From NCBI GenBank assembly GCA_030272155.1, contig CP126202.1:1860001-1924000 (forward strand): a stretch of 64,000 nucleotides of DNA, written 5' to 3'. Below the pieces are notes generated by a model. The model was given only the letters and a program-made list of their open reading frames with translations. It made no database searches and had not been told where the DNA came from. The position numbers and the translations under genes were made by a program. Position 1 is the first letter of the stretch. Each line of letters starts with the position of its first letter. This document shows positions 1-64,000 of the stretch, in pieces. Origin of the DNA: Tetradesmus obliquus (Eukaryota; Chlorophyta; Chlorophyceae; Sphaeropleales; Scenedesmaceae).

Positions 1-1
1 A

Positions 2-2293
2 GCAGCAACAGATGGTGGAGGTGCAGCAGCACCCAGCCAAAAAGCAGAGCTAAAGCTATGGCTAGACGAGTCAGCTGCTATAACAGATATCGGCTGTGAG
101 ATGCAGTACGTGGCTCAGCTGGAGCTGGCTGGATCAAAAATAACAACGCATGTGCCGCTGGCAGTGCTGGCGCGGCAGCACAAGCAAGTGCTGTGGCTGC
201 AGTTTTTCCTGGAGGCGAGTTATGCTACAACCTTCTACATCTTCACCGGGTGAGTCGCAGCATTAGCTTCGTCAGTTTCCAGCGTGATAGCGTTTGTTGC
301 ATCGACGGTGCGGCACACAACAACTGTTAGCTGCAATGCTGTAGCAGTGTCACTGCTGCAGCGTGGCGTGTGACGTTGAGTTGGAGTGGAGTTGAGGTGG
401 AGTTTTTCCTGGAGTCCAGTTATGCTGCAACCTTCTACATCTTCACTGGGTGAGTTGAGACGTCGATTGAGACGTCCGTGGTAGGCTGCTGCAGCATGCA
501 CACAGTAGAAATGCACGATTGTGTCAAGTCCTGCGGCGACTTTCTACGTCTTCACTGCTTCTGCTGCTTTGATGTCTTCAACACGCAGCTGGCTGCCCTC
601 CTACCTGCGAGCCACCACCAAGCTCCCGCCCCAATCCATCATGTGGGCCCTACTGGCCGGCGTGACCCCCTTCGCTCCTACAACGTCTGCCAGCTGCTCT
701 TGTACTTCCCAATGCTGCGAGCTACTTACTCACCCACGCTGGCCGCCGCCGCCGCTGCTGCTGCTGCTTTTCTGTTTTGCAGTTGGCTGCCCTCCTACCT
801 GCGCGCCACCACCAAGCTCCATCCGCAGTCCATCATGTGGGCCCTACTGGCAGGCATGGCCCTCTTCGCTCTTGAAACGTCTGCAAGTTGCTCTTCCTCT
901 TCTCACTGTTGCGATGTACCTATCCACACACCCTGGCCGCCGCCGCCGCCGCTGCTGCTACTGCTGCTTTGCTGAATGCAGTTGGCTGCCCTCCTACCTG
1001 TGAGCCACCACCAAGCTCCCGCCCCAATCCATCATGTGGGCCCTACTGGCCGGCATGGCCCTCTTCTCTCTTACAATGTCTATTAGTTGCTCATATCATC
1101 GTCCGCTGCTGCGGTGCACCTACTCATCTATGCTGGCCGCTGCTGCTGCTGCTGTTGTTGTTTTGCTGAATGCAGTTGGCTGCCCTCCTACCTGCGAGCC
1201 ACCACCAAGCTCCCTCCTCACTCCATCATGTGGGCCCTACTGGCAGGCATGGCCCTCTTTGCTGCAGCAGCACCCTACGGAGGCGTCTTAGTGGACAGGG
1301 GCCTCCCAAAAGTGTGGGCCCTGATGGGCCTGAGCCTTGGAGTGGTGGCAACAAGCATCCCAGTCATGTTTGCGCTGAACGCGGGCTCCTTTGTGTACCT
1401 GATGGTGCTGCTGCCGGCCATGCTGGGGGTAGCTGGAGTGATGGGAGGTGTGCTGAGCAGCATTGGGCCGCAGATGTACCCGGCGGCTGTGCGGGTAACC
1501 GGGTTCACTCTGGGTGAGTGCAGCGCAGGAATTCATTGCTTGTGCGGCAGTGCATTTGCTAAGTTTCCTTGTTTCGGTGTTTGTTGGGTACCTGATGGTG
1601 CTGCTGCCGGCCATGCTGGGGGTAGCTGGAGTGATGTGAGATGTCTTGAGCAGCATTGGGCCGCAGATGTACCCGGCGGCTGTCAGAGTCACTGGCTTCC
1701 CCTGGGTGAGTACGTGGCTGCCTGCCATGCACGCCTTGGCATTGTGCGCTCTTGTACAGTCTGTGTTACTTCTGCTCATTTACTCTGGGATGTTCCGTAC
1801 ATGCATTTTGCACCTGAGGGTGCTGCTGCTGTGCATGCTTGGGGTGGCTGGGGCCATGGGCGGCGTGCTGAACAACATCCTGAACTTTGCCGTTGCTGCT
1901 GCAGGCCACAGTCTTGCTATGTCAGCGTGGGGAGGCCTGTCCCCCTTCATGGTCTCAGCCATTGTGCTGCTGGTGCAGCCCTCCGCACTGGCAGCAGGCC
2001 TGCTGCTAGTCGTCACCGGCCTAGTGTCCTGGGCAGCAGCAGTGCCACTGATCAGTCTGATGCCCCACATGAATGCTCGAGGGGTGCGGCCCGCACCGCA
2101 GCAGCTGCTGGTGAACCCTTACAAGTACCTGGAGGGGTTGAAGGAGCGGCGACGGAAGAGGAGGGATGCGGGGGGCGGCACGGCTGCTGCTGCTGCTGCT
2201 GCTGCAGCAGTGACGGCGACGGCGGCAGCGGCAGCAGCAGTGGCTGCGGCAGGGCATGGTGTGGGGAGGCAGGAGGCATTTGAGGGACGCTAG
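2..2293 (+). CDS. MFS transporter, C-terminal part (gene continues left of the window)
   Basis: Exons 2-249, 1176-1513 and 1905-2293 join in phase (2, then 1) to give 324 residues ending at TAG 2291-2293. The protein shows the second half of a 12-helix MFS permease: a soluble loop, then helices beginning at FFLEASYATTFYIFTG and WLPSYLRATTKLPP, a loop of the G-x-L-x-D-R-G type (YGGVLVDRGLPKVW), and helices up to LVSWAAAVPLISLMPH. A cytoplasmic tail rich in Arg/Lys and poly-Ala follows. It aligns by eye with the C-terminal half of the gene at 4468-9225 (FLFEAWVSIGFWVISTWLPL), so both belong to the proline/betaine/metabolite:H+ symporter-like group. The substrate is unknown. Its introns contain copies of all its exon edges. 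The 5' half lies outside the window. Confidence 0.85.
401..449 (+). repeat. Copy of the first exon's 3' edge plus donor
   Basis: This repeats about 50 bases of 201-249 (reading FFLESSYAATFYIFTG) and is again followed by GTGAGT at 450. A weaker third trace lies near 530-556. It sits in the intron downstream of the parent exon and has no acceptor of its own. Confidence 0.8.
589..1264 (+). repeat. Four tandem copies of an acceptor plus exon start
   Basis: The start of the exon (WLPSYLRATTKL, then IMWALLAG) occurs at 589, 783, 982 and 1176, a period of 194-199 bp. Each copy is preceded by a CTG/CCG-rich tract and CAG. Only the last copy runs on into the rest of the exon (AAAPYGGVLVDRG). The first three diverge after about 100 bases and lack a donor at the homologous point. 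Confidence 0.9.
1588..1880 (+). repeat. Copies of the exon 1176-1513 donor half
   Basis: 1588-1704 repeats the stretch encoding YLMVLLPAMLGVAG to RVTGF and ends at a GGGTGAGT donor like the parent. A third, more diverged copy (LLCMLGVAGAMGGVLNNI) occupies about 1815-1880, just before the acceptor of the last exon. Confidence 0.8.
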
Positions 2294-61761: not shown

Positions 61762-62008
61762 GTTAAAACATAACAGTATGCCGCACCACCCCCCTCTACA
61801 TCCATACACCCCTCTACTACATCCATAACCGATGCTCTAATTTATGCACGGAAGAGCATAGGAACAAGCAGGCTTGCCCTGCTTTTGATGCGTAGGACTT
61901 GTGACTTGTAACTCCATAACCGAGACAGAGGTTCCATCTCAGCCAGTGATTGGCATGCAGTGATCTGCGCGCAGGCTGCTCAACGCGCGTGCACTGCGCA
62001 CAGGCTGC

Positions 62009-64000
62009 TCAACGCGCGTGCGAGTGCGGGCCGCAAGCGCAGAGCGTCGTGGCTGGCAGGGATGAGTTGCTGGCTGGCGCGTAGTTGAGCAGCGCCAGTG
62101 CTGCTGCCATGCTGATGACAGCAGCAGCAAGCAGCAGCAGCCCTGGAGCCATCATGGTGCTGCCTGTGACTGCCACTAGAGCAGTGACGATGATGGGGCT
62201 GACACCACCTGCAGTACACACAGCAGACCACAGCGCATGGTTTTGGTCAGTAAGATGTGATTGCTGTATGTTCCTGAGCACAGGGCTGCATGTGAGTGTC
62301 ACTAAAGCGGTGACGATGATGGGGCTGACACCACCTGCAGCATGCACAGTAGGACGAAGCGCAGTGTGGGTGTCAGTCAGGATGTGAAACAAAGGAATGC
62401 TTAGCACAGCGCTGCCTGTGACTGCCACGAGAGCGGTGACGATGATGGGGCTGACACCACCTGCAGCACACACAGCAGACCACAGCGCAGTGTGATTGTC
62501 AGCTAGGACAGCAGTACTGTCTGTTGCTGAGAAGTGCTGCCCTGAGGCAGCCATCAGAGCGGTGTGCAAAAAAACGGAATGCTCAGCACAGCGCTGCCTG
62601 TGACTGCCACCAGAGCGGTGACAATGATGGGGCTGACACCACCTGCAGTACACAGTGGCACACAGCGCAGTGTGCGTGTCAGCAAAGATGTGATCACGTA
62701 TGTTTCTGAGCACAGGGCTGCCTGTGGTGGCCACTAGAGCGCTGACAATGATGGGGCTGACCCACCTGCACAGCAGTAGACAGTGTGACTGTAAGTAGGA
62801 TTGCCGATCACATGTGCTGCGCAGCATGCTGAGCTCATGTGAGCACTAACAATGGCGAGGCTGGCAGCATCTGCAGAGCAGCGCAGCAAAGTGCAGCGTA
62901 TTGCGAGCATTCAAGTCTGGTTGTCAACGCATAACATCTGCTTGAGGTGCCGTGTTCTGCGCAGAACAAAGCGGCAGGCCGCAGCCAACACACTGAAACC
63001 GCGCACTGTCCCAGCCATGACATGGCCACGTTGTGGGCCAGGTTTTGAAAAGCACATGCATCTGAACACATGCATGTAATCTTTAATGCATCACTTCATG
63101 CACTCACCCAGCCAGCACATGGCCATGTTGTGCGCCAGGGTTGCATCAAACGCCTGCCTGATCGCCGCAACATGAAACAACGCTTCTACCGCAACTCACC
63201 CAGCCAGCTCATGGCCATGTTGTGGGCCAGGTTTTGAGAAGCACGTGCATCTAACGTTGAATGCATCACTTCATGCACGCACCCAGCCAGGACATGGCCA
63301 TGTTGTGTATGTTGTGCGCCAGGGTTGCTTCAAACAATGCGTGATCGCCGCAACATGAAACAACCGTCCACCGCAACTCACCCAGCCAGGACATGGCCAT
63401 GTTGTGGGCCAGGTTGAAGCCGGAGCTGCGCACAGTGGCCGGGTAGATGCTGCTGCAGGTGGCTGCAAGGGGGCAGGAGCAGCAGCAGCAGCAGCAGCAG
63501 CAACAGCAGCAGCAATGGGTCAGATACAGTTGGATGCTATGTCACCAAAAGTACCGCAGCAGCTGCAAGGTCGGTGCAGCAGGGCTGAATGCTTCTGCAA
63601 CCTGGCCTGAGGATGAGCTAGTGTGACCACCAGATGAACCTGACACATCTGCGCAACGCAAACACTACACCCAGCACCATTTAATGTGCACAACCTGCCT
63701 CCTCACCTGGCACCACGCCCAGCACCCAGCCCATGAGCCTCTAAAAACCCCTGACCACCCTAAACCACATGGACAACCCACACCCAAAACCCCAGCCTCC
63801 ACACATGTGGCAACCAACCCTCCTCACCTGGCACCACACCCAGCACCCAGCCCATGAGCACCATCAGTAGCAGGTGCAGCAGCCAGCAGCCCGCCACGCC
63901 GCACCGCGCAAACCCGATGAACACCGGCACGCTGATGCCCGCCGCAGCCGTGAACACGGCGAAGCAGCTCCACACGCGCGGCATGCCCTTGTCTGAGGCC
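62009..64000 (-). CDS. MFS transporter, 3' part (gene continues right of the window)
   Basis: Exons 64000-63828, 63462-63382 and 62208-62009 join in phase and end with GLLLLAAAVISMAAALALL, NYAPASNSSL and a short tail before the stop. They correspond to helices 9-12 of the gene at 4468-9225. The first exon and the following intron are nearly identical to 7807-8802 in inverted orientation, whereas the last exon is clearly diverged (GGVSPIIVTALVAVTG against GGVSPTIVTALVAATG, and a different C-terminus). It is likely the same transporter subfamily. The N-terminal part lies beyond the window. Confidence 0.85.
62285..62775 (-). repeat. Acceptor-edge copies of the last exon of the minus-strand MFS gene
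   Basis: CTGCAG plus the exon start GGVSPIIVTALVAVTGSAVL recurs near 62330, 62455, 62635 and 62770 before the true exon at 62208. The spacing is about 125-180 bp. Confidence 0.9.
63000..63310 (-). repeat. Donor-edge copies of the penultimate exon
   Basis: LAHNMAMSWLG and the GTGAGT-type donor recur near 63275-63312, 63193-63235, 63105-63140 and 63012-63045, following the parent exon end at 63382. Several copies differ by Met/Leu changes only. Confidence 0.85.

Follow-up and report, generated by a model that had tools for sequence, protein, structure and literature searches.

How do the introns of a green alga come to hold copy after copy of the ends of their own exons? The question is raised by a 64,000-nucleotide stretch of Tetradesmus obliquus DNA (contig C12:1860001-1924000, here called the window), where short pieces of exon, usually with a splice site attached, recur in the neighbouring intron. 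The original prediction, made from the letters of this stretch, spoke of pervasive half-exon duplication. The pattern of half-exon copies is real, more sharply defined than was first claimed, and confined to exon edges.

The genome comprises 104,662,953 bases in 17 contigs. The window was analysed together with stretches of contigs 1, 2 and 7 (230 kb) and of contig 15 (30 kb), a total of 324 kb or 0.31% of the genome, and GC content in these stretches is 57.0-57.7%. Gene models were predicted ab initio by a two-strand, splice-aware method trained on the same 324 kb, and retrained after masking of the copies. First-round models underlie family typing and the results on overhangs, spacers, divergence, intact GT and AG, identity profiles and stop regions; second-round models (labels or splice scores) underlie those on cluster placement, CTG tracts, partner sites, donor changes and acceptor tracts. 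Local direct repeats were defined as lying 40-1000 bp apart, with simple repeats masked beforehand.

Repeats at exon edges

The window holds 136 local direct repeat pairs and one inverted pair, and one first-order shuffle of it held none. The pairs group into 55 clusters, and there are 116 clusters over all 324 kb. The original exon edge was identified in 33 typed window families, of which 22 are donor-type and 11 acceptor-type. Together they hold 66 intronic copies, in agreement with the more than 40 first predicted. Over all regions, 104 clusters were assigned to a strand and 74 of them typed, leaving 66 families with 123 copies as the base of the codon and splice-site counts. One family, at 51068, was mistyped, two units having been taken as exon. 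Part of the statistics counts the copies within a family as independent, and values by family accompany these wherever they were computed.

Placement was compared with 500 rotations of the labels over all 116 clusters. Repeats are commoner at exon edges than elsewhere, as had been predicted: 74 clusters span exactly one exon edge (29.4 expected, standard deviation 4.3), and clusters lying only in intron (3 versus 23.6, standard deviation 4.0) or only in exon (1 versus 15.1, standard deviation 3.3) are depleted. Another 22 touch more than one predicted edge (26.6 expected) and seven are intergenic (12.1 expected). One end lies at most 15 bp from a splice edge in 112 of 227 partial pairs, against 64.5 ± 9.2 in 300 rotations. 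Clusters with full-length units (n=35) touch exon edges in 32 cases and are intergenic in three; none is intron-only. The description of the copies as local, direct, mostly carrying one splice site and placed at exon edges far above chance thus holds. Copying of stop regions, also claimed, stands for two clear cases and not for the class, since clusters at the ends of coding sequences (CDSs) are at chance (9 versus 9.2). Twelve rows of the repeat list meet a predicted CDS end; two of these are the clear stop-region copies, one in a lipase gene of the window (Table 1) and one at C1 87358-87422 that ends exactly at the stop codon. Two further CDS-end repeats extend 91 bp past the stop codon.

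The number of pairs per 100 kb is 212 in the window, 243 on contig 15 and 23-35 on contigs 1, 2 and 7. Because the predicted coding share is similar in all five regions (33-48%), repeat density is regional. Clusters are carried by 63% of window introns (50/79) and 54% of those on contig 15, compared with 4-13% on the sparse contigs (18/138, 19/161 and 2/46 on contigs 1, 2 and 7, respectively). "Pervasive" is therefore apt for certain regions and not for others, and the statement that every multi-exon gene is affected was too strong. Predicted mean intron length is 438 and 373 bp in the dense regions versus 281-330 bp in the sparse ones. Of eight further 2-kb samples, four had a repeat coverage of 0 and the others one of 0.11-0.73, the highest value coming from a satellite-like sample; coverage was 0 at two 3-kb loci.

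By position, the density of repeat pairs at C12 1.86-1.92 Mb and at C15 1.00-1.03 Mb exceeds that of the samples from C1, C2 and C7 six- to tenfold. A satellite-like 312-bp tandem array, 94-98% identical, occurs at C15:3500001-3502000.

Homology supports the predicted exon edges in some genes, among them a kinesin and a lipase gene. A genome-wide kinesin search, exon by exon, gave 135 matches. One kinesin exon (profile 263-326) has three partial matches within profile 260-289 ahead of it. In the array there, CCAG and the beginning of the exon (74 bp aligned) occur six times ahead of the exon; after each copy come a largely constant tail that is not exon and a spacer rich in CTG, and starts are 123-141 bp apart. 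For the window, proteins were joined from gene models after removal of the predicted copies. An alignment of the lipase gene to gastric lipase 1hlg over residues 3-136 (E 1.6e-10) crosses the edges of the families at 27332, 26736 and 26277, with family 27413 at its start. A CRAL-TRIO match (E 5.2e-13) contains the exon start at 53089.

Structure and divergence of the copies

Most copies are 40-70 bp long and consist of an exon piece, usually with a splice site; they occur at donors as well as acceptors. Donor-type pairs extend 1-14 bp beyond the donor in 28 of 38 cases, acceptor-type pairs 0-19 bp before the acceptor in 25 of 38, and the reach into the exon is 20-140 bp for most pairs of both types. 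Identity between exon and copy is about 0.91 through the exon up to the junction (mean over 36 donor and 18 acceptor families), falls just past it, at about +4 to +7, to 0.69 in donor and 0.67 in acceptor families, and is close to background, about 0.2-0.44, from +20. Donor families taken separately show 0.91 at +0 to +3 and, beyond the fall, 0.41 at +12 to +15 and 0.27-0.41 from +20.

The step between repeats, measured in 64 single-pair partial clusters, has a median of 134 bp, a middle half of 113-200 bp and a 5-95% range of 80-264 bp, in line with the period of 100-200 bp originally noted; the median period of the 35 full-length clusters is 126 bp. Spacers were compared by local alignment and shuffles (comparison with free end gaps was too noisy, with a null standard deviation of 0.18) in 49 pairs chosen from 76 for a step of at most 260 bp, identity of at least 80% and a spacer of at least 30 bp. 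Spacer homology was found at p<0.05 in 16 pairs and was not detectable in 33, of which 29 have steps of 94-152 bp. Some families, then, are plain tandem arrays with homologous spacers, and others have no detectable spacer homology. A simple tandem process is therefore not the full account: where the spacers lack detectable homology and the exon parts are alike, either the copies were made without the spacer or the exon parts were kept alike afterwards.

The copies are half-exons, since the partner splice site is not enriched beside them. Compared with random intron in three window sizes, acceptors were not enriched beside 83 donor-type copies (p 0.29, 0.12 and 0.086), nor donors beside 40 acceptor-type copies (p 0.62, 0.037 and 0.044, the last two reflecting fewer than random). 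The claim that complete cassettes are absent is supported to this extent; against it, more than one predicted edge is touched by 22 of the 116 clusters, and a kinesin example is perhaps, judged by eye, a whole-exon copy. Counting of complete cassettes on the first gene models was dropped because those models label copies as exons, and automatic gene models of this genome may do the same. The sequence past the copies scores as intron, not coding: the 45 bp past 69 donor-type copies have a coding score of -0.134 with a stop in 51% (intron -0.130 and 36%; exon +0.092 and 0%), and the 45 bp ahead of 30 acceptor-type copies have a score of -0.087, nearer intron than exon, with a stop in 20%.

In the kinesin case, at C5:4052966-4053631, profile 161-215 is matched twice in succession. 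This segment resembles a whole exon by eye in other kinesin genes, and the case is possibly one of a complete exon copy.

The copies mostly keep their splice site. GT is intact in 63 of 69 donor-type and AG in 27 of 30 acceptor-type copies aligned to the junction; the alignment does not reach the junction in 24 of the 123 copies. In donor copies, degenerate positions carry more of the changes than expected by chance (z 3.2 for 63 copies and 2.0 for 33 families). Acceptor copies whose tract is unlike the original (at most 7 of 13 bases) keep a strong tract, with a mean of 1.59 in 14 copies, whereas CAG sites in introns 75-300 bp upstream average about -1.1 (p 3e-5); by family the means are 1.64 and -1.06 (11 families, p 0.0007). 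Against a half-decayed value of +0.2, set by hand, p is 0.03, and 0.11 in the 10 families without CTG tracts. These data are moderate evidence for selection on the splice competence of copies. As originally claimed, the copies add competing splice sites to introns. Among 88 cases, splicing at a copy's site is predicted to introduce a stop in 75, only a frameshift in eight and neither in five, counts that come without a chance expectation.

At zero-fold sites, divergence is 0.048 between exon and copy and 0.090 between copies; the corresponding values at four-fold sites are 0.197 and 0.184 (66 families, 123 copies). The zero-fold value is thus about twice as high between copies, as expected from independent, relaxed copies of one constrained source. 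At least 96% identity to the exon is seen in 19 of the 123 copies. The copies look untranslated. Stop codons account for 8 of 218 non-synonymous differences, where 4.1% would be expected without selection on translation, and this neutral share makes it unlikely that translation keeps the copies; with the step in frame in 26 of the 99 copies that reach the junction, translation is disfavoured as a reason for retention. Four-fold divergence between exon and copy is 0.194 in families with an alignable spacer and 0.192 in those without (aligned spacers differ by 0.170), so that under plain decay the families without an alignable spacer are not simply older. Incompatible site pairs exceed a no-recombination simulation in three of four testable families (p 0.047, 0.070 and 0.013; 1.0 in the fourth), weak support for exchange between copies.

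Explanations for the pattern

The explanation tentatively preferred, with a chance somewhat short of even, is that short tandem duplications occur across exon edges and that the exon-anchored block is then refreshed from the selected exon. Short-range duplications, mostly with a step of about 95-150 bp, would repeatedly copy a stretch spanning the exon edge, and an exon piece with its splice site would thereby land within the intron. The similar step and geometry of families with and without homologous spacers suggest one origin for both. The spacer would decay, and the exon-plus-splice-site block would be refreshed from an exon kept intact by selection, perhaps via short-tract conversion or replication template switching between nearby repeats. 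Restriction to edges would reflect survivorship: exon-internal duplications would be purged, intron-internal ones would fade and exon-anchored ones would persist. The two cases where similarity ends at or near a stop codon, with no splice site there, count in favour of this explanation, as do the concentration on edges, the drop in identity at the junction, the equal four-fold divergence with and without alignable spacers, the doubled zero-fold divergence between copies and the tandem structure of the homology-supported kinesin array.

Several observations weigh against it. Intron-only repeats should show even without refreshment, and their absence among the full-length clusters points to birth at edges. 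Conversion has weak evidence behind it, with no contribution from the kinesin array, where the single informative pair shows no incompatibility. Of the 21 genic pairs with at least 95% identity, one is a full-length repeat; freshly born tandem units thus look rare, although the comparison is confounded, as partial alignments give higher identity. The rate of change in copies at zero-fold sites is about half that at four-fold sites, slower than under pure neglect, and copy-private changes show a zero-fold deficit (base-stratified odds ratio 0.38, z -6.1). The splice sites, too, look better kept than random change predicts.

Alternatively, exon edges might be copied directly into the intron, for example by transcription- or replication-coupled template switching. 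The spacer (mostly 47-90 bp in simple pairs) would then never have been homologous, and arrays would grow later by unequal exchange. This would suit the 33 pairs without detectable spacer homology, whose exon parts are up to 98% alike, the lack of intron-only clusters among the 35 full-length ones, and the fact that all but one of the 21 highly similar genic pairs (identity of at least 95%) are partial, subject to the confounding just mentioned. Such targeting is nevertheless unlikely. The two stop-region copies end at or just beyond a stop codon and not at a splice site, and arrays with homologous spacers have similar steps (median period 126 bp, n=35), which suggests one origin. We know of no process that recognizes exon edges in DNA.

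Selection might also keep splice-competent half-exons as functional decoys, for example for unproductive splicing or for recognition of the true site. The strong tracts of altered acceptor copies, the degenerate positions at which donor copies mainly change and the stop or frameshift predicted in 83 of 88 cases count in favour of such decoys. This is rather unlikely as the explanation. The tracts stand out less against the half-decayed value, nonsense changes in copies are not avoided, 24 of 123 copies are not aligned to the junction, and GT or AG is missing from 9 of the 99 that are. The six- to tenfold regional difference in density at similar coding share also suits mutation better. Edge-targeted copying combined with maintained splice competence would make half-exon decoys a distinct genome-wide element of gene architecture, with competing, unproductive splice sites in most introns of some regions, a possibility that deserves mention and is, on balance, not likely.

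Ordinary neutral tandem duplication, with an edge bias arising only because exon copies decay more slowly, is very improbable. Plain tandem arrays are present, and divergence is slowed by the constraint on one of the two lineages. Yet this predicts about a twofold difference, and spacers show no homology beside exon parts that are only a few per cent apart; nor are intron-only clusters found even among full-length arrays. Joint decay of whole units is likewise disfavoured by the split between 33 pairs without detectable spacer homology and 16 with it. CTG-repeat slippage, originally suggested as a cause, is rejected as a general one: a CTG/CAG tract of at least five units occurs in 17 of the 116 clusters, compared with 31.5 ± 4.1 in same-size windows over random edges, a test in which prior masking of simple repeats biases against CTG-rich cases. 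One strong CTG-rich example, the kinesin array, does exist. The chance of an assembly artefact is negligible, since the copies lie closer together than the length of a long read, most differ from the exon and the spacers are unlike, so that collapse or false expansion would hardly make them.

Window features and comparison with known systems

The typed families and arrays of the window are collected in Table 1.

Table 1. Exon-edge and stop-region copies in the window (positions within the 64,000 nucleotides)
Type	Original edge or array	Copies	Strand	Remarks
Donor	exon end 205-249	405-449	+	gene with weak, below-cut-off MFS_1 match
Acceptor	exon start 1176-1263	590-676, 783-870, 982-1065	+	unit private to locus
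Donor	exon end 1391-1513	1584-1699, 1806-1878	+	
Tandem repeat (not typed)	5356..5642	x1.9, period 152	+	CTG tract + CAG + exon-start-like segment
Donor array	7949..8558	about 5, period about 121	+	exon end ...MGWVLGVVP, then GTGAGG; by reading alignment; outside typed set
Donor	exon end 8771-8802	8871-8902	+	
Donor	exon end 9158-9194	9270-9306, 9386-9418	+	
Stop region	lipase-gene predicted end 21129-21196 (TGA)	20976-21043	-	similarity stops about 11 bp beyond stop
Donor	exon end 21824-21937	21478-21591, 21652-21763	-	
Donor	exon end 22780-22875	22204-22229, 22287-22380, 22534-22631	-	
Donor	exon end 24379-24466	five within 23756-24309	-	
Acceptor, lipase	exon start 26277-26347	26412-26480	-	edge within gastric-lipase alignment
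Donor, lipase	exon end 26736-26785	26623-26672	-	edge within gastric-lipase alignment
Donor, lipase	exon end 27332-27386	27184-27238	-	edge within gastric-lipase alignment
Acceptor, lipase	exon start 27413-27436	27565-27588	-	edge at very start of gastric-lipase alignment
Donor	exon end 28026-28092	27882-27947	-	
Acceptor	exon start 29641-29703	29755-29817	-	
Donor	exon end 30205-30244	30080-30116	-	
Donor	exon end 32825-32886	32546-32607, 32686-32739	-	
Acceptor	exon start 33838-33915	33974-34049, 34110-34183	-	
Acceptor	exon start 35148-35205	35269-35319, 35490-35547, 35619-35667	-	
Donor	exon end 35971-35997	35882-35908	-	
Donor	exon end 38565-38616	38805-38856	+	
Acceptor	exon start 39669-39720	39559-39607	+	copy without AG
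Acceptor	exon start 40180-40237	40037-40094	+	
Donor	exon end 40648-40699	40757-40808	+	spacer not homologous (p 0.33)
Acceptor	exon start 42273-42352	41809-41852, 41928-41971, 42032-42111, 42170-42220	+	
Donor	exon end 45512-45573	45658-45688, 45786-45842, 45941-45997, 46041-46095	+	
Donor	exon end 47747-47808	47874-47914, 48091-48150, 48327-48388	+	
Donor	exon end 48945-49065	49205-49325	+	
Donor	exon end 50044-50081	50165-50202, 50292-50327, 50417-50452	+	
Donor array	51050..51717	five, period 132	+	exon end ...EGFKLSYVMGDMLTLFK, then GTGAGT; CRAL-TRIO gene; edge outside domain match; two units typed automatically as original exon
Acceptor	exon start 53089-53134	52960-53004	+	edge within CRAL-TRIO match
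Donor	exon end 53219-53278	53356-53415	+	
Acceptor	exon start 62159-62208	four within 62285-62765	-	
Donor	exon end 63382-63415	four within 63011-63307	-	

A Pfam search gave a below-cut-off match for the first MFS-like gene and no match for the second, which carries the array at 7949..8558; both are called MFS-like by eye. Because the exons are short, scanning frame by frame with Pfam yielded a single family from six readings. In the DEAD-helicase search 32 of 136 candidates were scored, too few to show duplications. Long open reading frames (ORFs) at 54761-60989 (minus strand) look by eye like a LINE-type retrotransposon, with an endonuclease-like stretch, beside a proline/glutamine-rich ORF; the ORF at 59163-59753 (minus strand) is assumed to resemble a cysteine-protease/deubiquitinase domain. 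The window also has minisatellites at 10111-10242, 61227-61612 and 61640-61765 (units of 14, 29 and 40 bp, respectively) and, within a predicted gene region, a (CCTG)n tetranucleotide tract of 36.5 units at 15420-15565. On contig 7 (C7:1520001-1530000), two predicted gene ends, at 4782-5164 and 9007-9389, share the same internal repeat (offset 227, 76%) and lie 4,225 bp apart. They are apparently tandem genes with a common edge duplication, in which case the edge duplication would predate the gene duplication.

The pattern is strong and countable. It links local DNA duplication to exon edges, accompanies longer introns and widens the range of splice sites on offer. Copies that are used would make the alga a test bed for unproductive splicing and for the choice between splice sites; unused copies would point to a mutational or conversion process that respects coding boundaries.

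Tandem exon duplication, including that behind mutually exclusive exons, gives local, direct exon copies with both splice sites. The copies in this alga, in contrast, have one, and the partner site is not enriched. An introner or other mobile element does not fit, as the one unit tried (361 bp) matched at length only in its own intron among the 47 matches listed: three places, itself included, lay there and the other 44 matches were 33-64 bp long. The fill-in of breaks by Pol alpha-primase also yields small tandem duplications (PMC8355091); an exon-edge preference is not mentioned in the accessible part of that paper. Intron gain by tandem duplication has been reported for a proto-splice site in Drosophila (PMC2891723) and for RdRp in potato (PMC4974935). 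As far as the accessible parts of these papers go, the common feature is an intron that contains exon-like sequence as the result of tandem duplication at a splice junction. There, however, duplicated coding sequence creates the intron, whereas in the alga the copies sit inside introns and, in some regions, recur in most of them. Intron gain is rejected here, since the sequence beyond the copies is intron-like and a copied exon end is not joined in frame to the next exon. Among the titles and abstracts listed in literature searches, some of them aimed at duplication mechanisms or at the species, none described pervasive exon-edge copies, with a coverage that largely excluded subscription papers. 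The nearest known pattern, judging from the accessible part of PMC3887541, is the crowding of tandem repeats toward intron-exon junctions in plants and green algae, strongest in Chlamydomonas and Volvox. That part reports motifs (the top intron motif being GT/AC) and does not describe copying of exon plus splice site; what it shares with T. obliquus is the concentration of tandem repeats at the ends of green algal introns.

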